Positions 1 through 31,000 of a stretch of DNA of 46,512 nt are shown in pieces. The notes below the pieces were generated by a model that worked only from the letters and a program-made list of their open reading frames with translations, was not told the origin of the DNA and ran no database searches. The DNA is taken from the IMG/VR virus record IMGVR_UViG_3300010430_006906, positions 1-46,512 of that record. One strand, 5' to 3'. The DNA comes from a virus. How positions within the stretch are numbered: position 1 is the first letter of the stretch; each line of letters starts with the position of its first letter. The position numbers and the translations under genes were made by a program.

Positions 1-1185
1 TCACTCCCGCTGCCCCCTCACCATCCCGACGACGCGGGCCACCGCGCCGCGGCGCTCCTCAAGGGTCACCGCAGAGTAGCGCTCGCCGATCGCCTCGTCC
101 GCGTGGCCGATGAGCGCCTGGCGGACGATCTCGGAGGCGTTCTGCCGGATGAGGTTGTTCCAGGTGTGCCGGAGCATGTGCACCGCCGGCCGCCCGTCGA
201 GCTCGATCCCCGCGGCGTCGCACACGCGCAGGATGGCCTTGCGCGCGTACACGTTCGCCACGTACGTGGCGCCGCGGCGCCTCGAGGGGATCACGAGCGG
301 CGAGTCGCACCCGGTCTGCTGGTGAGCGACCAGCGCGCGCCGGTGCTCGCGCAGAACCTCGATGAGCTCGTCGGGGATCACGACGGTGCGCCGCGACGCT
401 CGAGCCTTCACGTGGCCGACGATCCCGCGCCACTGCGCCCGGCGGACCCGGATGGTGCCGGCCTCGAGGTCGACGTCTCCCCATTCGAGCGCGCTCGCCT
501 CGCCGAAGCGCAGACCCGTCCAGGCCATCGTGGCGACGAGCGCCCAGACGCGGCGCCACGGCTTGGTGACCTCGCCGCGCTGGGTCACACCGAGGCGAGG
601 CCCGGCGGCGAGGAAGCGCCGCAGCTCCTCGATCGACAGCCCGCGCCCCTCGTCCTCGAGGCGCTCGTCCTCGCGCACGTCGCGGCGAACACCGACGCCG
701 GCGACGATGCACGCGACGCGCTCCTCGCGGGCAAAGGTCCGGAGCACGCGCAGCCGGCAATCGAGCGTGCTGCTGGCGTCGCCGCCCTCGCGGCCGCCGG
801 CGAGTGCCTCGCGCACGTCGTGCGGCTCGAGCTCCGCGAGTAGGTAGTCGCCGAGGACCGCCGTCCACCAGGAGACGGCCGAGGCGTAGGTCGACGCCGT
901 GCTCGGCTTGATCGTCAGCCGCTTCTCAGCGAGCCAGCCGGCCAGCGCCTCACCGAGTCTTGCCGGTCCCGCCTCCACCACGCGCCGCCCGCGCTCGCGC
1001 AGCCAAGCGGCGCGCTCGAGCGCGCGGTGTTTCGCGGCGCTGGCCGGGCTGTCGGCCTCGATCCGTCGATCGATCTCGTGCTCTCGGCCCGTCTTCGGGT
1101 GCCGCACCTTCGCCCGGATCCGGTACACGCCGTCGCCCAGCGGCGTCACCCCCGGGTAGCGCCTCTTCGCTCGCCTCTTCGCCAT
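1..1185 (-). CDS. int: Tyrosine recombinase (prophage integrase)
   Basis: Site-specific recombinase expected to insert and excise the prophage at a tRNA-Gly attachment site. The N-terminus carries the AP2-like arm-binding motif (RYPGV...YRIRAKV). A SAM-like core-binding domain follows, then a catalytic domain with Arg in TGLRFGEAS, the HMLRHTWNN box (HxxR), His in LIGHAD and the nucleophile Tyr in GERYSAV, so the active site looks complete. I chose the ATG at 1185 because a GGAGGG ribosome site precedes it closely; the frame stays open to 1251. The stop codon is the first bases of the window, so the attachment site lies just outside. Length (394 residues) is normal for the family. Confidence 0.93.
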   Translation of the reverse strand: MAKRRAKRRYPGVTPLGDGVYRIRAKVRHPKTGREHEIDRRIEADSPASAAKHRALERAAWLRERGRRVVEAGPARLGEALAGWLAEKRLTIKPSTASTYASAVSWWTAVLGDYLLAELEPHDVREALAGGREGGDASSTLDCRLRVLRTFAREERVACIVAGVGVRRDVREDERLEDEGRGLSIEELRRFLAAGPRLGVTQRGEVTKPWRRVWALVATMAWTGLRFGEASALEWGDVDLEAGTIRVRRAQWRGIVGHVKARASRRTVVIPDELIEVLREHRRALVAHQQTGCDSPLVIPSRRRGATYVANVYARKAILRVCDAAGIELDGRPAVHMLRHTWNNLIRQNASEIVRQALIGHADEAIGERYSAVTLEERRGAVARVVGMVRGQRE

Positions 1186-1387
1186 CTGCCCTCCGTCGGA
1201 TCCACGCGTCGACGTCGGCCGCGCGGAACAGCAGCACGCCCCTCGCCCCATGACCGTACACCTGCGGACCTCGTCCCCGGCGCACGAGCTTGGTCACCGC
1301 GCCCCGGGTGCAGCGCAGGATCGCGGCAACCTCGGAGGTGTCGAGGAGCTGGGGGAGCGCGCTGCGGTCCTCGGCGAGCTCGCCCAT
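950..1387 (-). CDS. Excisionase-like helix-turn-helix protein
   Basis: A small DNA-binding protein probably acting as recombination directionality factor. Residues about 14-65 form an AlpA/MerR-type winged HTH (LLDTSEVAAILRCTRGAVTK ending in the usual LLFRAADVDAWI). The ATG overlaps the stop of the upstream gene (TGATG). The open frame runs 236 bases into the integrase gene in another frame, giving an Arg-rich tail with no recognisable domain. Only the first 75 or so residues look meaningful. The degraded integrase at the right end of the window has the same HTH-then-int arrangement in the same relative frame, which supports the pairing. Confidence 0.7.
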   Translation of the reverse strand: MGELAEDRSALPQLLDTSEVAAILRCTRGAVTKLVRRGRGPQVYGHGARGVLLFRAADVDAWIRRRADGEEASEEALPGGDAAGRRRVPDPGEGAAPEDGPRARDRSTDRGRQPGQRRETPRARARRLAARARAARGGGGTGKTR

Positions 1388-1662: not shown

Positions 1663-1973
1663 CGATCCTCCCGCCAACGCAGCATGACGCGTGCGACCGC
1701 GCGCAGGTCGACCTCCGAAAGCGCCTGCACCCCCTCGTGCTCGAATCTGGGGATGACGCGCGCCATGCGCGCCACATCCTCAGGGCGGATGCTCCGGATG
1801 AGGGCCGCGGACAGCGGTCCCCGGGACACGAGCTCGACGATCGCCTCCTGCATCAGCAGCGCGCCGGCGTGCGCGTCTGCGCACGAGGTGCAGAGGTCGC
1901 GATCCGCGTCGACCCACGCGCAGCCCTCATCACAGGCGTCGAGCTCCGTGCAGCCGCAGACCCGGCAGATCAT
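1650..1973 (-). CDS. Small zinc-ribbon protein (ICRVCGCTE type)
   Basis: A protein of 107 residues with an N-terminal zinc cluster, MICRVCGCTELDAC followed by GCAWVD and LCTSCA. This widespread phage motif is often found beside DNA-metabolism genes. The rest is a helical segment without recognised family. The ATG overlaps the stop of the ParB-like gene (ATGA), so it was taken as the start. The function is unknown; zinc binding by at least four of the Cys is inferred from spacing. Confidence 0.65.
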   Translation of the reverse strand: MICRVCGCTELDACDEGCAWVDADRDLCTSCADAHAGALLMQEAIVELVSRGPLSAALIRSIRPEDVARMARVIPRFEHEGVQALSEVDLRAVARVMLRWREDRCRS

Positions 1974-3775
1974 GACGACGCCTTCTTCTTCGGCGCCTTC
2001 TTCTTCGGTGCCTTCGGCGCCTTCTTCTTCGGTGCCTTCGGCGCCTTCATCTTCGACGGCTTCTTCTTCGACGCCCTCGACGCCTTCCGCGCTTCCCGCC
2101 TGTGATGCGCGACGTCGACCCCGTAGTGCTTGAGAACCTGGCGCGGGCCAGCCTTCGCGGCGAGCGGGTCGCGGTGCGCGGCTTGAGCGAACGCTGGCGC
2201 GAGTACGAGCTCGACGAGCAACGCGAGGAGCTCGCCGCGGTCCATCGGCTTGGCGAGCTTGGTGATCCGGGAGGTGGAGTCGAAGAAGTACGCGGGGACC
2301 TTCTGCCCGCGGCTGTTCAGGACCCACCCGACCGCCGACGTCGAGGAGTGCTGAACGGCGACGCGCACGAGCGCGCGCAGCACCTCCGCGTCAAGCTCGC
2401 CCGGGCCGTCCGCGATCGCGCTGCGGAGCGTGGCAGCGCACCGCCGAATGACCTCCTCGTCGCGCTTCGCCTTCTCGCGGCGTTTGCGCTCGCGCTCGGC
2501 GTGCTCGCGCCTCCTCTCCTCGTAGTCGCCGCTGATGTCCTCGAGCGTGCCGTTGCTCGACCGCGCGCGACGCGCTTCGCGCACGCGCGCCGCACTCTCG
2601 GCGCTGTTGGGGTAGCGGTCCTGCACACGAGACCATGCGAGCTCCTCGTCGAGCGCCTCGACGAGCTCTCCCTTGGGCGTGCAGATGACCGTGAGGTCCT
2701 CGACGGCAAGCTCGCCGACGATCTCGCGCCACGTGGGCACCTCCGGCTCATCGGGATCGAGGTCCTGGTAGACCTCGGCCGGCTCGTCGAGCGTGACCAA
2801 TCCGCTGTCGTGCCGGACTTCGCATCCCCAGGCGATCACGCTCTTGGCCGCGTCGCCCTCGAGCACCGTCGCGCCAGCGGCCTCGAGCTCCGCCCTCCGG
2901 GCCGTCCACCAGCCATCGACCTTGGCCTCCCAGCACGCGCCGTCGAGGCACAGGTCCTCGCCGTCGGCGTCGCCGAATAGCTCGGCCTGCGCAGCGGTGC
3001 GGCGCGGGCAGCTCGCACACGCTCCGGCGTTGGGCACGAGCTGCGCGTCGGCCAGGTCCCAGGGCGCCTCGGCGAGCACACGGCACGCCCGCTTGATCGC
3101 GGCGCGAACATGCTGGCCGCTGGCGACGCCGGGCATCCAGTGTCCGTATTCGTCGCCTTCGAAGCCGTCGGGCCAGTTCTCGACCCGGGGCCAGCGCAGG
3201 GCCGGGCCCATGTGCTCGACCGCCTGGCGCTGCGGGGCGGCGTCCAGCTGCGCGAGCGCCAGCGCGCCCGTGAGGGTGAGCAGGCCGTGCTCGAGCAGCA
3301 TCCGGCCCTCGGGTCCCAGTCGCTGCAGCCGAAGACGCGCCCGAACGTAGCTCTCCGAGCGGCCGAGCTTGGCCGCGATCGCGGCCACGTCCCGACCGCG
3401 CTCGAGCAGCGCCTCGTACGCGTCCGACTCCTCGAGCGGTGCCACGTCCGCGCGCTGGCTGTTCTCGGCGACCATCGCCTCGAGCGCAGCGACGTCGTCG
3501 AGGTCGTAGCGGACGCGCACCGGCACGGTCTTGGCGCCGGCGATGGTCGCAGCGCGCAGGCGGCGAGCTCCGCAGATCACCTCGTATCCGCCGGGCAGCT
3601 CGCGCCCGTTGACCAGGCGCAGCGGCCGCACGAGCAGCGTCTGTAGAATCCCGTCGGCTGCGATCGAGTCGGCGAGGTCTTTGAGCGCGTCCTCGTCGAA
3701 GGTGCGCCGAGGGTTCAGCTCGCTCTCGGTGAGCTGGCCGATCGGGACGTCCAGAGTCTTCGGCTTCTTCGCCAC
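1970..3775 (-). CDS. ParB/RepB/Spo0J-like protein with lysine/alanine-rich tail
   Basis: A 601-residue protein with a GTG start. The N-terminal ParB domain is clear: the GARRLRAATIAGA segment corresponds to the ParB GERRxRA box, and ENSQRADVAPLEESDAYEAL to box II. The HTH DVAAIAAKLGRSESYVRARL follows at about residue 130-150. The middle has several Cys (ACASCP, CLDGACWEAK). The last 35 residues repeat KAPKKKAPKAP, like histone H1, encoded by tandem 24-27 bp DNA repeats near 1980-2070. No ParA ATPase is present anywhere in the window, so plasmid-type partition is unlikely. A chromatin-like or regulatory role on phage DNA is possible. Similar ParB-domain proteins occur in early operons of other high-GC phages. 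Confidence 0.82.
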   Translation of the reverse strand: MAKKPKTLDVPIGQLTESELNPRRTFDEDALKDLADSIAADGILQTLLVRPLRLVNGRELPGGYEVICGARRLRAATIAGAKTVPVRVRYDLDDVAALEAMVAENSQRADVAPLEESDAYEALLERGRDVAAIAAKLGRSESYVRARLRLQRLGPEGRMLLEHGLLTLTGALALAQLDAAPQRQAVEHMGPALRWPRVENWPDGFEGDEYGHWMPGVASGQHVRAAIKRACRVLAEAPWDLADAQLVPNAGACASCPRRTAAQAELFGDADGEDLCLDGACWEAKVDGWWTARRAELEAAGATVLEGDAAKSVIAWGCEVRHDSGLVTLDEPAEVYQDLDPDEPEVPTWREIVGELAVEDLTVICTPKGELVEALDEELAWSRVQDRYPNSAESAARVREARRARSSNGTLEDISGDYEERRREHAERERKRREKAKRDEEVIRRCAATLRSAIADGPGELDAEVLRALVRVAVQHSSTSAVGWVLNSRGQKVPAYFFDSTSRITKLAKPMDRGELLALLVELVLAPAFAQAAHRDPLAAKAGPRQVLKHYGVDVAHHRREARKASRASKKKPSKMKAPKAPKKKAPKAPKKKAPKKKASS

Positions 3776-6697: not shown

Positions 6698-7014
6698 TAG
6701 GCCCCCTGCCCCGTGAACGGGAGGCCGCCGAAGTCGAACGCTGGCACGCCGTCGATGGACAGCGGTCCTTGGAACAACCCGTACGCCGCCCAGTCGCAGC
6801 CGAGCGTCGGGACGTAGCGACCGAGGCACTCCTGCTCGACCCGGAAGTCGCCCTCGCGCAGCCGCGGCAAGTGCTCCCCGAACTCCGACCGGACCCGCTC
6901 GATCGACATCTCCCGCTTGCAGGCCGGGCACGCGAAGCGCCAAGTCGCCTGGTCGGCGCCGAAGAGGTCGCGGCCCTTGCTCTCCCACTCCTCCCGGCTG
7001 ACCTCACGCGGCAT
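6697..7014 (-). CDS. Small Cys-containing protein between sbcC- and sbcD-like genes
   Basis: A 105-residue protein with RDLFGADQATWRFACPACKR near residues 16-35 and further Cys in QECLGRY and LGCDWAAYGLF. This layout resembles small phage proteins annotated as the VVA0879 family, from memory only. CPAC plus the two later Cys could hold one zinc. It sits exactly between the ATPase and the nuclease genes and overlaps both, so it may be an accessory factor of that complex. This is inference from position. Confidence 0.6.
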   Translation of the reverse strand: MPREVSREEWESKGRDLFGADQATWRFACPACKREMSIERVRSEFGEHLPRLREGDFRVEQECLGRYVPTLGCDWAAYGLFQGPLSIDGVPAFDFGGLPFTGQGA

Positions 7015-8209
7015 CGCGCACCTCCACCTCGAGCTCGCCCAGGCCCGCGAGCAGCTCGCCGGCGTAGGTCTCGTCCGGCTCGTCGGCGCGGGCGCGCCAC
7101 AGCGCCTGCAGCTTGTCGGCGAGCGTCGCGGCCGCGCCGACCTCCGGGGCCCGGGCCCGCGTCTTGGCGATCACCCGCTGCTCGAGCTCGACGCGCACGG
7201 CGCCGGCGGCGAGCCAGCTCTGGCGGTAGTCCTCCGCGAGTTCGCGCGCGCGACCGCGTACGTCTGCGGGCGTCTCGTAGCGCAGGCGGATCTCCGCGCC
7301 CGCCGGAGCCACGTCGTCGGTCGCATCGACCGCGAGCGAGATGCCGTCCTCGCCGACGGCTACGTGGCCCTCGAGCAGGAGCATCGGCGCACACGGCGTC
7401 GACACGCGCTGCCAGCGCACCGACAGCAACTCCTCGACGCGAGCGTCGTCGGAGATCTCCAGAACCGCGTAGCCCTTGTCCTCGATCTCCCCGAACGCGG
7501 TGCGGCGCGGCGAGCCGGGATACAGCACGGAGGTGCCGAGATCGCCGCCGGTCGTGCCACCCTCCCATGGCTCCCATGCCTGGGCCATGTGCACGTGCCC
7601 CAGGCAGACGACGTCGGCGCAGGCGAGCTCGAGGGCGCCGAGCCCCAGCTCGAAGTCGCAGCCGACCAGCGGCTGACCCGTGGAGACCCGCGAGCCCCGC
7701 ACCATCGCGTGCGCCAGCAGAATCCGCGGTCCGTCGTGACGGGCGAGCTCGAGCCCCAGCCCTCGGAGCACGTGCTCGAGCGCGGCCGCGGCGCCCTCCT
7801 CGAGGAGCGCGCGGCTGTCGACCCGCAAGAACTGCGCGAGGCTCGCGCGCGACGGCCAGGCCAGGCACGCCACGGCGACGCCGGCGACGACGTGCACGGC
7901 TGCCGCTTCCTCGACGACGATCGGGTGGCGCGTCCGGAGGCGTTCGAAGATCGAGAGGTCACGCGGCGCATCGTGGTTGCCTCGCACCATCACGACCGGC
8001 GCGAGCTCGGCCACGTCGCGCAGCCAGTCGGCGACCTGGGCGCGCTCGAGCGGCGTCGACTTGCGCTCGAAGACGTCGCCGGCGTGCAGCACCAGGTCGA
8101 CGCCACGCTCGCGCAGGTCCTGGGCGATCCAGTTGTGGATCTGCACGCACTCCTCGAGCCGGCTGGACTGATCGAAGTGCGAGTCGGCGATGAGGGCGAC
8201 GCGCGTCAT
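7004..8209 (-). CDS. sbcD-like: SbcD/Mre11-like metallophosphoesterase
   Basis: Expected nuclease subunit working with the SbcC-like ATPase on DNA ends. The five calcineurin-type motifs are present in order: Asp9 and His11 in ADSHFD, GDVF at 44-47, GNHD at 77-80, His in LLAHAMV near 170 and GHVH near 205. Two divalent metals are expected in the active site. A capping region with ordinary composition follows to residue 401, the usual length for SbcD. The start overlaps the next stop upstream by four bases. It sits with zinc proteins and a possible annealing protein, suggesting recombination-dependent replication or repair of phage DNA. Confidence 0.9.
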   Translation of the reverse strand: MTRVALIADSHFDQSSRLEECVQIHNWIAQDLRERGVDLVLHAGDVFERKSTPLERAQVADWLRDVAELAPVVMVRGNHDAPRDLSIFERLRTRHPIVVEEAAAVHVVAGVAVACLAWPSRASLAQFLRVDSRALLEEGAAAALEHVLRGLGLELARHDGPRILLAHAMVRGSRVSTGQPLVGCDFELGLGALELACADVVCLGHVHMAQAWEPWEGGTTGGDLGTSVLYPGSPRRTAFGEIEDKGYAVLEISDDARVEELLSVRWQRVSTPCAPMLLLEGHVAVGEDGISLAVDATDDVAPAGAEIRLRYETPADVRGRARELAEDYRQSWLAAGAVRVELEQRVIAKTRARAPEVGAAATLADKLQALWRARADEPDETYAGELLAGLGELEVEVRDAA

Positions 8210-25093: not shown

Positions 25094-25951
25094 ATGCCCA
25101 GCGTTCAGACCACCCAGCGCCTCGAGGAGCGCATCGGCCGCCACGGCGCCGCGTTCGACTCCTCGGTCCGCTCGCACAGCCGCATCGCCGACGCCGCGAT
25201 GCGCCCGGGTGACGTCGCGATCCGCGCCGCGGAGGCGTCCGAAGGCGACCTCGAGGCCACGCCGCTCACCGCGCCGGCCGCGGCCGACGCCGATGCCATC
25301 GTCGACGCCGCGCCCACCGCGGCGGGCGCGCAGGAGCTCACGGGCGCCGCGCTCGACGGGGTGATCGGCGCCGAGCCGATGATCCCCGCCCGCAACCTGA
25401 CCGTGGATACCAACAGCCACGCGGACTGGGACGACACCGACATCACGATCGAGGGCGAGGATCCCGAGGGCAACGTGATCAGCGAGGTCTTCGAGGTGTC
25501 CGACGGCGGCGGCGACTCGCTGACCGGCAGCCTGCTGTTCCGCCGGGTGACCAAGGTCAGCGTCCCCGCGCAGTCGGGCACGAGTGGCGTGCTCGACGTC
25601 GGCACCGGCACCGACCTCGGCGAGCTCAGCAGCCGCGACGTCGCCGGGCTCGTGCGCTACCTCGCCGCGCGCGAGGTCGCCGACGTCGACACCGCCGAGT
25701 ACGCGGCCGGCGAGACGCTCAACATCGTGCACCGCGGCCCGGTCTGGCTCGAGGTCGAAGAGGACGTCGCCGACGGCGAGCGCGTCTTCGTCCGCCTGGT
25801 CACGTCGGGCGCCGAGGTCCTCGGCGGCTTCCGCCGCAGCGCCGACGGCAGCGCCGGCGCGCCCGACGCCGTCCCGATCAAGGGCTGGCGGTTCCGTGGC
25901 GCGAGCATCGATCGCGACAGCGTCAAGCTCGCCATCGTCGACATCCCCTGA
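25094..25951 (+). CDS. Capsid cement/decoration protein with inserted domain
   Basis: A 285-residue protein. The N-terminus (QTTQRLEERIGRHGAAFDSS) and C-terminus (PIKGWRFRGASIDRDSVKLA) fit the gp24-type structural cement proteins found between protease and capsid genes. Residues about 61-175 are an extra beta-rich domain (AQELTGAALDGVIG... NLTVDTNSHADWD...) that also occurs inside the tail sheath of this phage. Forty-six bases (25328-25373) are identical to 29333-29378. A good AGGAG site precedes the ATG. Cement proteins stabilise the expanded shell; the inserted domain may project from the surface. Confidence 0.72.
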   Translation: MPSVQTTQRLEERIGRHGAAFDSSVRSHSRIADAAMRPGDVAIRAAEASEGDLEATPLTAPAAADADAIVDAAPTAAGAQELTGAALDGVIGAEPMIPARNLTVDTNSHADWDDTDITIEGEDPEGNVISEVFEVSDGGGDSLTGSLLFRRVTKVSVPAQSGTSGVLDVGTGTDLGELSSRDVAGLVRYLAAREVADVDTAEYAAGETLNIVHRGPVWLEVEEDVADGERVFVRLVTSGAEVLGGFRRSADGSAGAPDAVPIKGWRFRGASIDRDSVKLAIVDIP

Positions 25952-25986
25952 TCGAAAGCAACGCGACCCAGCAGGAGACCCCCAGC

Positions 25987-26991
25987 ATGATTTCCCTCGC
26001 AACTCGGATGATCGCCGAACGGTTCCACGAGGTGATGCCGCGCGGCGCGATGGTCCACCTCGACGACCACGGCTTCGTGCGCATCGACGCCGCCGTCGCG
26101 ACCGCCTTCATCGAGCAGGAGCTGGAGTACGTGAAGATGCGCACGTACGACATCCGGCGCGTGGCGCTCAAGATCCGCACCCTGCTGCCCGTGTCGTTCG
26201 AGGCGCACCCGGGCGCCGAGGTGATCGCCTACGACAGCTACGACGCGTACGGCGAGGCGAAGATCGTCGAGTCGTACTCCGACGACTTCCCCCGCGTCGA
26301 CGCCGACAAGGACCGCCACCGCGACGTCGTCTTCGGCCTGGGCATCTCCTACGGGTTCAGCGTGCAGGACCTGCGCGCGATCGCGATGAGCGGCAGCCGC
26401 CTCGACACGCAGCGGCCGATGCAGGCGCGCCGCGGCATGGAGACGAAGCTCGAGCGCATCGGAGCGCTCGGGGTGCCGGCGAAGGGCACGACGGGGTTCA
26501 TCAACAACGCCGACATCCCGCTGTTCGGCTCGACCCTGAGCTGGACGATGGCCACGCCCGCGCTGACGATCATGGCGGACCTGCAGCGGATCACGCAGGC
26601 GGTCGTCATCCAGAGCGCCGACACCTGGGAGCCCGACACGCTCGCGATGAGCCACGACGCGTACGCCGTGGCGTCGAGCGTCACGTTCGGCTCGGACTCG
26701 CCCATCAGCGCGCTGGCGGCGTTCCTGCGGCAGAGCCCCTACATCAAGCAGGTCGAGCAGTGGGCGAAGCTGACCGGCGCCGGCGCCGGCGCCGGCGAGG
26801 ACCGCCTCGTCGTCTACAAGCGCGACGAGGACGTGGCGGTGCTCGAGATCCCGCAGGACTACGAGGAGTTCCCGCCCGAGATCAAGGGCCTCGAGTTCAT
26901 CACGTACGGGCACATGCGTGCCGCCGGCGTGAGCGTGAAGTTCCCCCTGGCCTGCCAGTACGCCGACGGCACCTTCGACCCCGCGTCCTGA
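25987..26991 (+). CDS. Major capsid protein (DUF2184 type)
   Basis: The shell protein, 334 residues, HK97-fold family expected. The pattern EQELEYVKMRTYDIRRVALK, PGAEVIAYDSYDAYGEAKIV, DDFPRVDADK, then GLGISYGFSVQDLRAIAMSG and an RR-containing helix is typical of DUF2184 capsids. It has a clear ATG with AGGAG upstream. GCCGGC repeats near 26775-26800 give a short Ala-Gly run, probably a loop. There is no long N-terminal delta domain, consistent with a separate scaffold encoded upstream. Confidence 0.85.
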   Translation: MISLATRMIAERFHEVMPRGAMVHLDDHGFVRIDAAVATAFIEQELEYVKMRTYDIRRVALKIRTLLPVSFEAHPGAEVIAYDSYDAYGEAKIVESYSDDFPRVDADKDRHRDVVFGLGISYGFSVQDLRAIAMSGSRLDTQRPMQARRGMETKLERIGALGVPAKGTTGFINNADIPLFGSTLSWTMATPALTIMADLQRITQAVVIQSADTWEPDTLAMSHDAYAVASSVTFGSDSPISALAAFLRQSPYIKQVEQWAKLTGAGAGAGEDRLVVYKRDEDVAVLEIPQDYEEFPPEIKGLEFITYGHMRAAGVSVKFPLACQYADGTFDPAS

Positions 26992-27059
26992 TCCCCACCC
27001 TGATCCCAACCCGCGCCACCCCGGGGCCTGGTCGGCCTCACCCCCTGGAGAGCCCCCCG

Positions 27060-27533
27060 ATGAAGCTCAACGTCACCTCCTCGCAGCGGACCACGCTCGG
27101 CGCCGGCCGGCGCCGCATCACCCTGATGGCCGGCCGCGCCGTGCAGGTCGACGAGGCGCTGCTGCGCGACCTGCTCGAAGCGGGCAACGGCCACGGGCTC
27201 AAGCTCTGCGAGGCCGGCGTCCTCACCATCGAAGAGCCGCGCGTCGAACGCGTCGAGCGGACGACGGCGCCCGAGTACCTCGAGCTCGAGCGGGAGGGCG
27301 AGGGCACGCCCAACGCTCCGAGCACGCCGGCGACCCTCCGCGACTTGACGATCGCCGAGGCCGAGCCGCTGATCGCCGCCGAGACCGACCTCGACCGGCT
27401 CGAGCTTTGGGCCGAGGCGGACGAGCGGCGCGGTATCCACGACGCGGTCGCCAACCGCCTGGTGGAGCTCGAGAGCGCGGAGCCGCGCACCGAGGGCACC
27501 GACAGCGACCGCGAGGACGGCGCGGAGGACTGA
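27060..27533 (+). CDS. Head-associated protein of unknown function
   Basis: A 157-residue protein, ATG with GGAG nine bases upstream. The N-terminal half is beta-rich (MKLNVTSSQRTTLGAGRRRI), the rest acidic and helical (IAEAEPLIAAETDLDRLELW). It stands between the capsid and the DUF4054 connector, so a minor head protein is likely. The 68 bases before it have no clear hairpin. Confidence 0.6.
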   Translation: MKLNVTSSQRTTLGAGRRRITLMAGRAVQVDEALLRDLLEAGNGHGLKLCEAGVLTIEEPRVERVERTTAPEYLELEREGEGTPNAPSTPATLRDLTIAEAEPLIAAETDLDRLELWAEADERRGIHDAVANRLVELESAEPRTEGTDSDREDGAED

Positions 27534-27536
27534 TCG

Positions 27537-27842
27537 GTGGCCAAGGCGCACCTCACGCAGGCGCAGTTCCTCGACGCGTATCCGGTCTTCGAACCGGCCG
27601 CGACCGAGAAGCCTGCGCTCGTGACGGCCGCGCTCGACAACGCCGCCCTCGAGACCCCGCTCGACGTCTGGGAGGACCTCGCCACCCACCGGCACGGGCT
27701 GCTCGCCGCGCGCTTCCTGGCGCGCTCCCCGTTCGGGCGCGACGCCCGCCTCAGCAAAGACGACGGCGCGACCGTCTACGACCGAGACCTCGAGCGGCTC
27801 GACCTGTCGGTCGGCGCCGCCGTCACCGTGCGGACCACCTGA
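27537..27842 (+). CDS. Head-tail connector (DUF4054-like)
   Basis: A 101-residue helical protein with a GTG start. LTQAQFLDAYPVFEPAATEK, then ALDNAALETPLDVW and HGLLAARFLARSPFG follow the DUF4054 pattern (YPEF...ALD.A...W...A..LLA.HLLA), the ring below the portal in myoviruses. The order capsid, DUF4054, neck proteins, sheath is canonical. Confidence 0.78.
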   Translation: MAKAHLTQAQFLDAYPVFEPAATEKPALVTAALDNAALETPLDVWEDLATHRHGLLAARFLARSPFGRDARLSKDDGATVYDRDLERLDLSVGAAVTVRTT

Positions 27843-27843
27843 G

Positions 27844-28311
27844 ATGCCGTCGCGCGTCGTCGATCGAGACCTGGGAGCCGCCGCGATGACGCGGCGCGCG
27901 CACCGCCTCGCGCGCGGCGTCGCGGTGTCGGTCGGCGTGCACGAGCAGGAGGGCAGCCAGCCCCATCCGTCCGGACCCACGGTCGCCGAGGTCGGCGCCC
28001 TGGCCGAGTTCGGCACCGAGTCCCAGCCGCCGCGGCCGTGGCTGCGCGGCGCGCTCGAGCGCGAGGCCGAGATCCGGACCGACCTGCGCCGCGCGTCGGA
28101 GGCGGGCCTGCGCGGGCACGACGAGCTCGCCGCGCTGCGCCAGGTCGGCGAGCGGCTGGCCGACGACGTGCGCGATCGGATGGCCGGGCTCGAGCCGCTC
28201 GACCCCGACACGGTCGAGGCCAAGGGCGACGCGACGATCCTCGAGCAGACGCGCACGCTGCGCGACTCGATCCGCGCGCGCGCCCGCCGGCTGGTGGGGA
28301 CGGTCCGATGA
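27844..28311 (+). CDS. Tail completion/neck protein (HK97 gp10-like)
   Basis: A 155-residue protein. The core VAVSVGVHEQEGSQPHPSGP followed by TVAEVGALAEFGTESQPPRP and WLR matches neck or tail-completion proteins (VGVH...AEVGAxxEFG...PxRPWLR). The second half is helical and basic. The start directly follows the connector stop and the end overlaps the next gene by four bases. Confidence 0.75.
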   Translation: MPSRVVDRDLGAAAMTRRAHRLARGVAVSVGVHEQEGSQPHPSGPTVAEVGALAEFGTESQPPRPWLRGALEREAEIRTDLRRASEAGLRGHDELAALRQVGERLADDVRDRMAGLEPLDPDTVEAKGDATILEQTRTLRDSIRARARRLVGTVR

Positions 28312-28880
28312 CGTGGGCGACGTGGCAGACCGAGCTCGTCTCGCTGTTCGCCGACCTGTCGGAGATTCCGTTCGACTGGGCCGCCCAGCCGCGCGGGATG
28401 CACGTCGGCTCGCGCGGGCAGGTCGACCTGATCGGCCTGGCCGAGATCGGCACGCCGGACCTGCGCCACCTCGAGGACGGCGCCGACCCGAACGTCCGGA
28501 TCGAGAAGCGGATCGGGCAGCGGCGGCTGACGCTGCAGCTCGACGTGTGGAGCCCGCGCCAGGCGCTCGAGCACTCCGCCCGCGCGGTGATCGAGCGGAT
28601 CCGCTCGCGGCTGTACTTCGCGTCGACGTCGGCCCGGCTGCTCGCGCTGCACCTCGGCCTGATCCGGCTGACCGATCCGCTGCGCCTCGACCCGATCGAG
28701 GACGCGCGCACGGTGTCCCGCTGGTCGATGGACGCCCTCTTCTCCCTCGCGTGGGAGGAGACCGACGGCGAGCACCCGGGCACGTGGATCGATTCGGTCG
28801 AGGTGAGCTCGGCGTCGCTGCGTGACCCCGGCGGCGACCCGCTGCCCGCCCCCCTCCAGACCACACAGGTGATTCCGTGA
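28308..28880 (+). CDS. Neck/tail terminator-like protein
   Basis: A 190-residue protein beginning MTWATWQTELVSLFADLSEI. It has PNVRIEKRIGQRRLTLQLDV followed by WSPRQ, and later a helical region (EHSARAVIERIRSRLYFAST). This fits the terminator protein that caps myovirus tails (the LIC_12616 or gp12-like group, recalled from memory). Its stop overlaps the sheath start. Confidence 0.65.
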   Translation: MTWATWQTELVSLFADLSEIPFDWAAQPRGMHVGSRGQVDLIGLAEIGTPDLRHLEDGADPNVRIEKRIGQRRLTLQLDVWSPRQALEHSARAVIERIRSRLYFASTSARLLALHLGLIRLTDPLRLDPIEDARTVSRWSMDALFSLAWEETDGEHPGTWIDSVEVSSASLRDPGGDPLPAPLQTTQVIP

Positions 28881-30547
28881 CCGTCGAATCCGTCGTCGAT
28901 GTCCAGATCTCGGCCGAGACTCGGTTCCCCACGAGGGCCGGCTTCGGGACGATGCTCGTGCTCGGCTACCACACCGCGTGGCTCGAGCGCGTGCGCGTCT
29001 ACGAGGAGCTCGACGCGCTGGCCGACGACGGGATCACCGAGAACGATCCGCAGACCGGGAAGATCTACGCCGCGGTCCGTGCGGCGTTCTCGCAGAACCC
29101 CCGGCCGCGGCAGATCAAGGTGGGGCGGCGCGTGGGCGCACCCGACCAGTCGATCCGCCTGACGCCGACCAGCGTCGAGGAGGGCTGGACGTACTCCTTC
29201 TCGGTCGGCGGCGTGCCCTTCGCGTACACCGCGCAGGCCGGCGACGCGGTGGGCGACGTCACGGCCGCGCTCGAGGCGCTCATGGCGGCCGACGACGACG
29301 CCATCGTGGCAGCGGCGGCGACGGCCGCGGCCGCGCAGGAGCTCACGGGCGCCGCGCTCGACGGGGTGATCGGCGCCGCCGCGATCGCGCCGCCGCGCAA
29401 CCTCACCGTCAACACGGACGCGCACGCGGACTGGGACGCGACGACGATCGTGATCGAGGGCCTGGCCCCGAGCGGGCGCGCGATCAGCGAGAGCTTCGAC
29501 GTCAGCGACGGCGGCGACGACGCCCTCGCTGGGACGAAGACGTTCGCGAAGGTCACGAAGGTCACGGTCGCCGCGCAGAGCGGCGCCGGCGGCTCGCTCG
29601 ACATCGGGGTCGGGACGGTGTTCGCCAACGCCGACCTGGACGTCACCGGCACCGACGGGTCGACGCACCTCGACGTGGCGGCGAACGTCAGCGGCGAGTG
29701 GTTCGCGTTCGGCGGCTTCGACGCGCGGATGCTCGTGGAGGACCGCACGGCCGAGCCGGCGACGGCGCTGTCGACCGACCTCGACGCGATCCTCGAGGAG
29801 GATCCCGACTTCTATGGCGTGATCGGCGCCGACGCGCAGAGTCAGGCGCAGATCACGGCGGTGGCGGCCTGGACCGAGGCGCACCCCAACCCGGGCAAGC
29901 TCTACCTCGCGCACTCGATCGACAGCGACGTCGGCACGGCGGCCGACGACGATGTCGCCACCAGCCTCCTCGAGGCGACGTACTTCCGCAGCCACGTGCA
30001 CTACCAGCGCAACGCCCACGGGACGTTCCCGGACGCCGCCTGGATGGCCTCGCTGTTCCCCTTCGATCCGGGCAGCGCGACGTGGGACTTCAAGGAGCTG
30101 TCGGGCGTGCCGATCGACGCGCCGAGCGCGACGGTGCGCACCAACCTCAAGACGAAGAACGCGTCGTACTACGTGCGGATCAAGGGCCGGAACGTGACGC
30201 GGCACAGCAAGACGGCGGCGGGCGAGTGGCTCGACGTGGTGCGCTTCGTCGACTGGACGAAGGACCAGATCGCGACCGACGTCTTCGACCAGGTCAGCGG
30301 CAGCCCCAAGACGCCGTACACCCAGGGCGGGATCGATTCGGTCGGCGGGCGCGTGCGCCAGGTGGGCCGCCGCGGCGTCGCCGCCGGCGGCCTCGACCCG
30401 AACCAGGAGCTCACGGTGATCGTGCCGGTGCTGTCGGAGATCGACCCGTCCGAGATCGCCGAGCGGAACCTGCCCGGCGTGACCTTCGACTGGAGGATCG
30501 CCGGCGCGATCCACGCGGTCTCGATCCGCGGAAACGTCAGCGTCTAA
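28877..30547 (+). CDS. Contractile tail sheath (DUF3383-like) with inserted domain
   Basis: The sheath, 556 residues, GTG start overlapping the previous stop. The N-terminus (VVDVQISAETRFPTRAGFGT, then YEELDALADDGI) and the C-terminal half (FYGVIGADAQSQAQITAVAA, DVFDQVSGSPKTPYTQGGID) fit DUF3383 sheaths. At about residues 135-250 the domain AQELTGAALDGVIG... NLTVNTDAHADWD... SFDVSDGGDD interrupts the usual small beta domain after VTAALEALM. The same domain is in the cement protein, with identical DNA over 46 bases. It is likely to be displayed outside the sheath tube. Confidence 0.85.
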   Translation: MTVESVVDVQISAETRFPTRAGFGTMLVLGYHTAWLERVRVYEELDALADDGITENDPQTGKIYAAVRAAFSQNPRPRQIKVGRRVGAPDQSIRLTPTSVEEGWTYSFSVGGVPFAYTAQAGDAVGDVTAALEALMAADDDAIVAAAATAAAAQELTGAALDGVIGAAAIAPPRNLTVNTDAHADWDATTIVIEGLAPSGRAISESFDVSDGGDDALAGTKTFAKVTKVTVAAQSGAGGSLDIGVGTVFANADLDVTGTDGSTHLDVAANVSGEWFAFGGFDARMLVEDRTAEPATALSTDLDAILEEDPDFYGVIGADAQSQAQITAVAAWTEAHPNPGKLYLAHSIDSDVGTAADDDVATSLLEATYFRSHVHYQRNAHGTFPDAAWMASLFPFDPGSATWDFKELSGVPIDAPSATVRTNLKTKNASYYVRIKGRNVTRHSKTAAGEWLDVVRFVDWTKDQIATDVFDQVSGSPKTPYTQGGIDSVGGRVRQVGRRGVAAGGLDPNQELTVIVPVLSEIDPSEIAERNLPGVTFDWRIAGAIHAVSIRGNVSV

Positions 30548-30556
30548 GGAGCGACC

Positions 30557-31000
30557 ATGGCAGCGACCTACAGCTACAACGGCAACGAGATCACGCTCGA
30601 CTACGCCGGGCAGCTGATCGAGGGCGGGTACGCGGACGGCGAGTTCTTCCGGCTCGAGATGGAGTCCGACGACATCGTGGACGCGGCCGGGACCGGCGGC
30701 GACGTCGTCGTCGCGCCGACCAACGACAAGCGCGCGAACGCCTTCATCATCTTGCACCAGGCCGCCGATGGAAACGACGTCTTGTCGGCGATCCGACAGG
30801 CTGGCCAGCGCACGCCGATCGGCTTCGCCGCCGCTCCGCTCTACGTCCGCGACCGGCTCGGCCGCAGCGTCTTCGAGGGGCTCGCGATCCTCGCGCGCCC
30901 CCCCGACGCGGCGTTCGCGCGCGAGGCCGGTAGCCGGGAGTGGAAACTGCGGATCACCCAGATCAGCCGGTTCGACGGCGGCAACGTCCGGCTCGACTAG
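30557..31000 (+). CDS. Tail tube protein (DUF3277-like)
   Basis: A 147-residue protein of the inner tube. MAATYSYNGNEITLDYAGQL, then FRLEMESDDIVDAAGTGGDV and SREWKLRITQ fit DUF3277 tubes. It follows the sheath by nine bases with GGAG before the ATG. The size is typical for phage tail tubes. Confidence 0.82.
   Translation: MAATYSYNGNEITLDYAGQLIEGGYADGEFFRLEMESDDIVDAAGTGGDVVVAPTNDKRANAFIILHQAADGNDVLSAIRQAGQRTPIGFAAAPLYVRDRLGRSVFEGLAILARPPDAAFAREAGSREWKLRITQISRFDGGNVRLD

Follow-up and report, generated by a model that had tools for sequence, protein, structure and literature searches.

A predicted beta-sandwich domain common to the head cement and tail sheath proteins of an uncultivated phage

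Phage virion proteins can carry Ig-like domains, T4 Hoc being an example (Fraser et al. 2006, as cited in PMC9230969 and PMC10385173). The domain described here resembles them as a promiscuous, predicted beta-sandwich accessory that appears to move between structural proteins independently of their core folds and for which weak surface binding can be proposed. In contrast to them, it is inserted into loops, has no significant match to the Ig fold, and is found as a single family on the cement and the sheath of the same virion. A second parallel is provided by the accessory domains of contractile sheaths, which are located away from the tail tube and for which a part in adhesion or stability has been proposed (PMC9230969); in the Pa193 sheath, a separate flexible domain (residues 91-210) lies around the core (PMC11042391). 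Similarly to the type 2 and type 3 sheath accessory domains (PMC9230969), the present sheath has an additional beta domain away from the tube; unlike them, it carries the insert within that accessory domain, and the head cement protein contains a homologue of the insert.

On the head side, the closest described proteins are the cements E217 gp24 and Pam3 gp6 (PF22758), which belong to the same family as the cement core studied here, although the known members that were compared lack the insert. The trimers of the E217 cement protrude from the capsid, and the omega loop of gp24 (residues 58-75) touches the N-terminal arm of its neighbor (PMC10329688). Modular reuse of domains has likewise been described for the BACON repeats of crAss-like phages (PMC6949934) and for phage domain mosaicism in general (PMC10684548), but the cement-sheath pair is not among the cases described there, and neither PHROGs nor Pfam has a model for the present domain. 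No account of a domain common to a head decoration protein and a tail sheath was found in open-access papers.

The phage and the shared segment

The DNA analyzed here (the window, 46,512 bp) is the entire virus record IMGVR_UViG_3300010430_006906, which by gene content reads as a temperate contractile-tailed phage. Minus-strand genes for an integrase and a ParB-like protein are followed by a DUF927/Toprim gene and the genes for the portal and a DUF2213 protease/scaffold, and then by those for the cement, major capsid, neck, sheath, tape measure, baseplate hub, and baseplate J proteins. Around the two genes of interest, the order of structural genes matches that in Pseudomonas phage E217 (compared with PMC10329688). 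The tyrosine-type integrase (4-1251, minus strand) and the ParB-like protein (1970-3775, minus strand) point to a probably temperate lifestyle, perhaps with plasmid-like partition. The early region also contains a calcineurin-like phosphoesterase gene (7004-8209, minus strand). A 993-aa open frame (27776-30757, minus strand) runs antisense to the neck and sheath genes and is most likely a side effect of the high GC content.

Table 1. Features in and around the cement and sheath genes of the window
Feature	Position	Strand	Basis
Head cement/decoration protein gene, 285 aa, E217 gp24/Pam3 gp6 type	25094..25951	+	PF22758, phrog_563, Pam3 8hdt_G, site just upstream of major capsid gene
Shared predicted beta-sandwich domain, cement copy, residues 64-172	25283..25609	+	Domain profile and alignment
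47-bp tract, identical to 29332-29378; candidate gene-conversion tract	25327..25373	+	DNA match and codon statistics
Major capsid protein (context)	25987..26991	+	PF09950, E=1.7e-43
Contractile tail sheath gene, 556 aa, DUF3383 family	28877..30547	+	PF11863, E=2.5e-15; phrog_205 ("tail sheath"), E=5.8e-85; PDB 9zdk_S, E=1.9e-52
Shared predicted beta-sandwich domain, sheath copy, residues 138-246	29288..29614	+	Domain profile; sheath relatives skip the segment
47-bp tract, identical to 25327-25373	29332..29378	+	DNA match and codon statistics
KPP10 Orf10/phrog_280-type structural protein after the sheath (context)	30557..31000	+	Profile matches

The cement protein matches PF22758 (Phage_cement, E=1.6e-10) over profile positions 38-143 of 146, with the insert interrupting the remainder, and its gene immediately precedes the PF09950 gene, as in E217. 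The sheath protein matches DUF3383 and the PHROG "tail sheath" family (Table 1) and retains both the N-terminal and the C-terminal parts of the sheath core. The names cement and tail sheath, assigned to these two genes in the first-pass annotation of the window from sequence alone, therefore hold.

Local alignment of the two proteins gave a score of 373 (BLOSUM62), compared with 50.6 ± 9.3 (maximum, 86) for 200 shuffles, and the common segment, cement residues 64-172 and sheath residues 138-246, shows 64-66% identity; outside it, the proteins have little alike. The similarity, aligned at both the DNA and the protein level, is real, and the earlier suggestion that the cement and the sheath have one domain in common is borne out. 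Its boundaries, set here from a profile of all copies together with alignments to empty sites, are close to those proposed at first sight (61-175 in the cement and 135-250 in the sheath). The longest exact DNA match, initially given as 46 bp, is indeed exact but extends over 47 bp (Table 1). The 46,512-bp record contains these two copies only, with no third one.

An insert outside both protein cores

A tblastn search of cultured phages with the window sheath retrieved 792 records with homologous sheaths, none of which covered 80% of the query, and the best matches listed among them were two-piece alignments that skipped the middle of the protein. The same pattern is seen with the solved sheath 9zdk_S, in which chain residues 5-130 and 175-428 align with query residues 4-140 and 299-556, leaving only 44 chain residues in between. 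Natural empty sites are found in the sheaths of four of the loci described below (L039, L040, L041, and L051), the first three of which have the same helix and strand with a short loop replacing the domain. Segment 138-246 is thus not part of the DUF3383 family core.

The cement proteins follow the same trend. The Pam3 cement (8hdt_G) matches a profile of 30 relatives at E=2e-7 and lacks the insert: profile positions 1-53 and 180-273 align with chain residues 1-55 and 67-156, with ∼11 residues at the insert site. Naturally domain-less cements of 162-167 aa are encoded in L005 and L018, and the one from L018 spans positions 2-164 of the 173 in phrog_563, which is nearly full length. When the window cement was modeled with AlphaFold (pLDDT, 88.7), its structure matched numerous phage proteins 136-164 aa long, with TM scores of 0.7-0.76 by target length; these alignments are ∼290 columns long, which implies a large gap at the insert. 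The empty sites, the two-piece matches to 9zdk_S and the Pam3 cement, and the gaps opposite the cement model place the segment outside both cores, as had been supposed from the sequence, and contradict, at the level of sequence and, for the cement, of fold, the possibility that DUF3383 sheaths and gp24-type cements normally include it in their cores.

Modeled alone with 55 relatives, the domain is confidently predicted by AlphaFold to form a beta-sandwich of seven strands and ∼110 residues (pLDDT, 93; pTM, 0.86). The model had no match among solved structures at E ≤ 0.001. The best matches, to subunits of the Bacillus endospore appendage (Ena), parts of tailspikes, and carbohydrate-binding modules, all had TM scores below 0.5; the comparisons with carbohydrate-binding modules and AlgX combined such scores with E values above 0.05. 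The likeness to Ig-like domains drawn in the first-pass annotation is therefore unsupported as a label for the fold, and adhesion cannot be read from the fold either. The nearest predicted viral structures belong to unnamed proteins from uncultured phages (A0A6J5SB67; TM score, 0.77). The domain profile retrieved from PDB sequences only a T-cell receptor beta chain (E=1.2), and searches of 55 copies against PHROGs and Pfam yielded no consistent family; a FlgD_tudor assignment, seen in 2 of the 55 copies (best value, 3.9e-5), was taken as spurious. Among the copies, mean column identity is 46%, and 14 positions are conserved at 90% or more. The conserved loops HADWDATT, IPNGG, and IPAQSGTGGT are common to head and tail copies, a conservation that may be structural.

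Distribution and exchange of the copies

Neither copy had a direct tblastn match in 50,697 cultured phage records, and single-copy scans of viral contigs, as well as the first genome scan, were likewise empty, so that relatives were sought by using alignments as queries. The alignment of both window copies matched 8 contigs, and an enlarged alignment recognized 44 loci in viral contigs and 1 in a Myxococcales MAG. The collection comprises 70 domain copies in 47 loci (one locus per contig; uncultivated phage contigs), whose host genes were classified with insert-free profiles. With two loci from myxobacterial genomes added, both genes are visible in 30 records. Both carry the domain in 21 of these, the window included, which correspond to ∼16 to 18 distinct lineages given that some of the records (e.g., L024, L025, and L026) are near-identical; as all records were found through the domain, this head-tail association has no baseline of phages with neither copy. 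Six records have the domain in the cement only (L039, L040, L041, L042, L051, and L064), and three have it in the sheath only (L005, L018, and L063). The two added myxobacterial-genome loci are L063 and L064.

The prediction that the domain would be found at variable places in other phages proved correct: as with phage Ig-like domains, one family is present in different structural proteins, namely cements, sheaths, and additional hosts. Proteins without a cement match carry it in L049, L052, and L053, in two copies in the case of L053, and the sheath of L029 (L029:7242-9251) contains two tandem copies that are 54% identical to each other. The tandem copies in L029 and L053 argue for autonomy of the domain.

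Two of the additional hosts, L053:7374-8474 (with two copies, from a 195.8-kb contig) and L049:7770-8534, look like structural proteins with an alternative N-terminal region common to both, and neither has a PHROG match. In the Myxococcales MAG, L054:5666-6403 (the same as L058), the domain and the cement C terminus lie in separate frames, through either a frameshift or an assembly error. Weak relatives (L059-L062) are found in other, mostly unannotated proteins from myxobacterial genomes; they belong to a wider, diverged family with a motif like VPRNVSVTFGASWDGGNVTVTGTDQY..SETIVANPGNTV.GVKVFKTVT, which is also present in Virus Rctr197k (KX853510). The idea that motifs of this kind are widespread among phage proteins was put to the test with a diverged relative, which gave only one match in the cultured collection. 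A host link to Myxococcota, based on strong matches in three genome assemblies, is uncertain, and misbinned phage contigs are possibly among these.

In a tree of 58 copies, the cement and sheath labels require 9 changes, and copies of the two kinds do not form separate clades; at least 3 label changes in the first tree and 4 in the second are forced by branches with good support. A single clade of all sheath copies is rejected (AU test, p = 0.0196). The two window copies are sisters in both trees (support, 99/93 and 100/95), and the two copies of L022 are also each other's closest relatives (98-99%). The rejection of one sheath clade and the sister position of the window copies show that the domain has been copied more than once between head and tail genes. 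In the insert-free sheath tree, domain occupancy switches at least three times. The copy alignment is short (110 columns), with many forks unsettled; the pairing of the L022 and L063 sheath copies is not rejected (p = 0.24) and the sheath-copy clade expected from the sheath core is borderline (p = 0.063), so that no claim is made on the direction or the number of transfers.

Outside the 47-bp tract, 38 of the 61 codons at same-residue sites of the window copies are identical, against 38.1 expected from codon usage alone. Synonymous sites are thus saturated there, and the duplication is old. The tract itself spans 15 codons without a difference (P = 0.00015 if codons are chosen independently; P = 0.0027 by shuffling) and is longer than the exact match in any of 788 cement-sheath pairs from different contigs (maximum, 32). 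Its simplest reading is a short, recent gene conversion. Of the two origins suggested earlier, recent duplication of the domain is ruled out by the synonymous saturation, and local conversion is plausible given the statistics of the tract.

Possible roles of the domain

The segment is best explained as an autonomous beta-sandwich module of ∼110 residues that occupies loops in virion proteins. The cement carries it in the loop that joins the N-terminal part to the rest of the beta-tulip fold; the sheath carries it between a helix and a strand of the accessory domain, which known sheaths place away from the tail tube. Its presence or absence leaves the host fold undisturbed. Gains, losses, and copying between head and tail genes within a genome have shaped its distribution, with at least some short-tract gene conversion. 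Most likely, many copies are displayed outside the head and the tail, where they would give the particle a weak, multivalent surface property, probably a capacity to adhere to polymers of cell surfaces or of the environment. The prospects of this reading, of a dispensable insert exchanged between head and tail and displayed outside the particle, are about even. Its parts differ in strength. The sharing of the module, its insertion sites, the natural empty sites, the repeated head-tail exchange, and the confidence of the fold prediction are established by the present data. The location of the sites in the outer accessory domain of the sheath and in a cement loop makes exposure on the particle likely, whereas the adhesion role is plausible at slightly less than even prospects. 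Given that head and tail copies have conserved loops in common despite their differing neighbors, we infer that one external role is likelier than two packing roles.

Alternatively, the domain could be a structural clamp that extends the inter-trimer loop on the head and bridges neighboring subunits in the sheath, stabilizing both and binding nothing. Cement proteins of this family stabilize capsids through loop-arm contacts between trimers (PMC10329688), and extra sheath domains have been proposed as stabilizers of the tail (PMC9230969). The sequences are too divergent for the insertion to be mapped onto E217 gp24, and its coincidence with the E217-type omega loop, the inter-trimer loop, is tentative; if correct, it would favor a structural role. 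However, a single clamp would have to fit two quite different lattices, the domain is absent from either gene in some records, and the conserved residues are common to head and tail copies, which have different neighbors. Such a clamp appears unlikely, although it deserves consideration, above all for the cement.

Less probable still is a near-neutral or selfish insert, spread by recombination and tolerated in the loops of abundant structural proteins. The patchy occurrence, the tandem copies, the further host proteins, and the repeated gene-to-gene copying would all fit such an insert, but the conservation of the protein sequence across a long divergence, together with the synonymous saturation between the window copies, points to purifying selection, and the occupation of both genes in 21 of 30 records also speaks against it. 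Finally, an ordinary core segment of DUF3383 sheaths and gp24-type cements, or low-complexity convergence, can be set aside as extremely improbable: A, T, and G are abundant in the segment, and the Pfam match (PF22758) in the cement begins inside it, at residue 155, but close relatives have empty sites, solved proteins match in two pieces, the alignment score far exceeds those of composition-preserving shuffles, and a separate fold is predicted confidently.

For the exposed, exchangeable surface module, a broader proposal can be put forward tentatively, namely that this undescribed beta-sandwich family is a coat module of the whole particle. Phages, at least some of them associated with Myxococcota, would carry it on cement and sheath, gene conversion would keep the copies exchanging, and head and tail would present one binding surface. 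Descriptions of phage accessory domains usually concern a single protein; a module that sits on the head shell as well as on the contractile sheath, and whose copies have been exchanged, provides a natural test of accessory-domain function, in which lineages with neither, one, or both copies offer matched comparisons. As a domain family without a Pfam, PHROG, or solved-structure assignment, it also marks an annotation gap in environmental phages.
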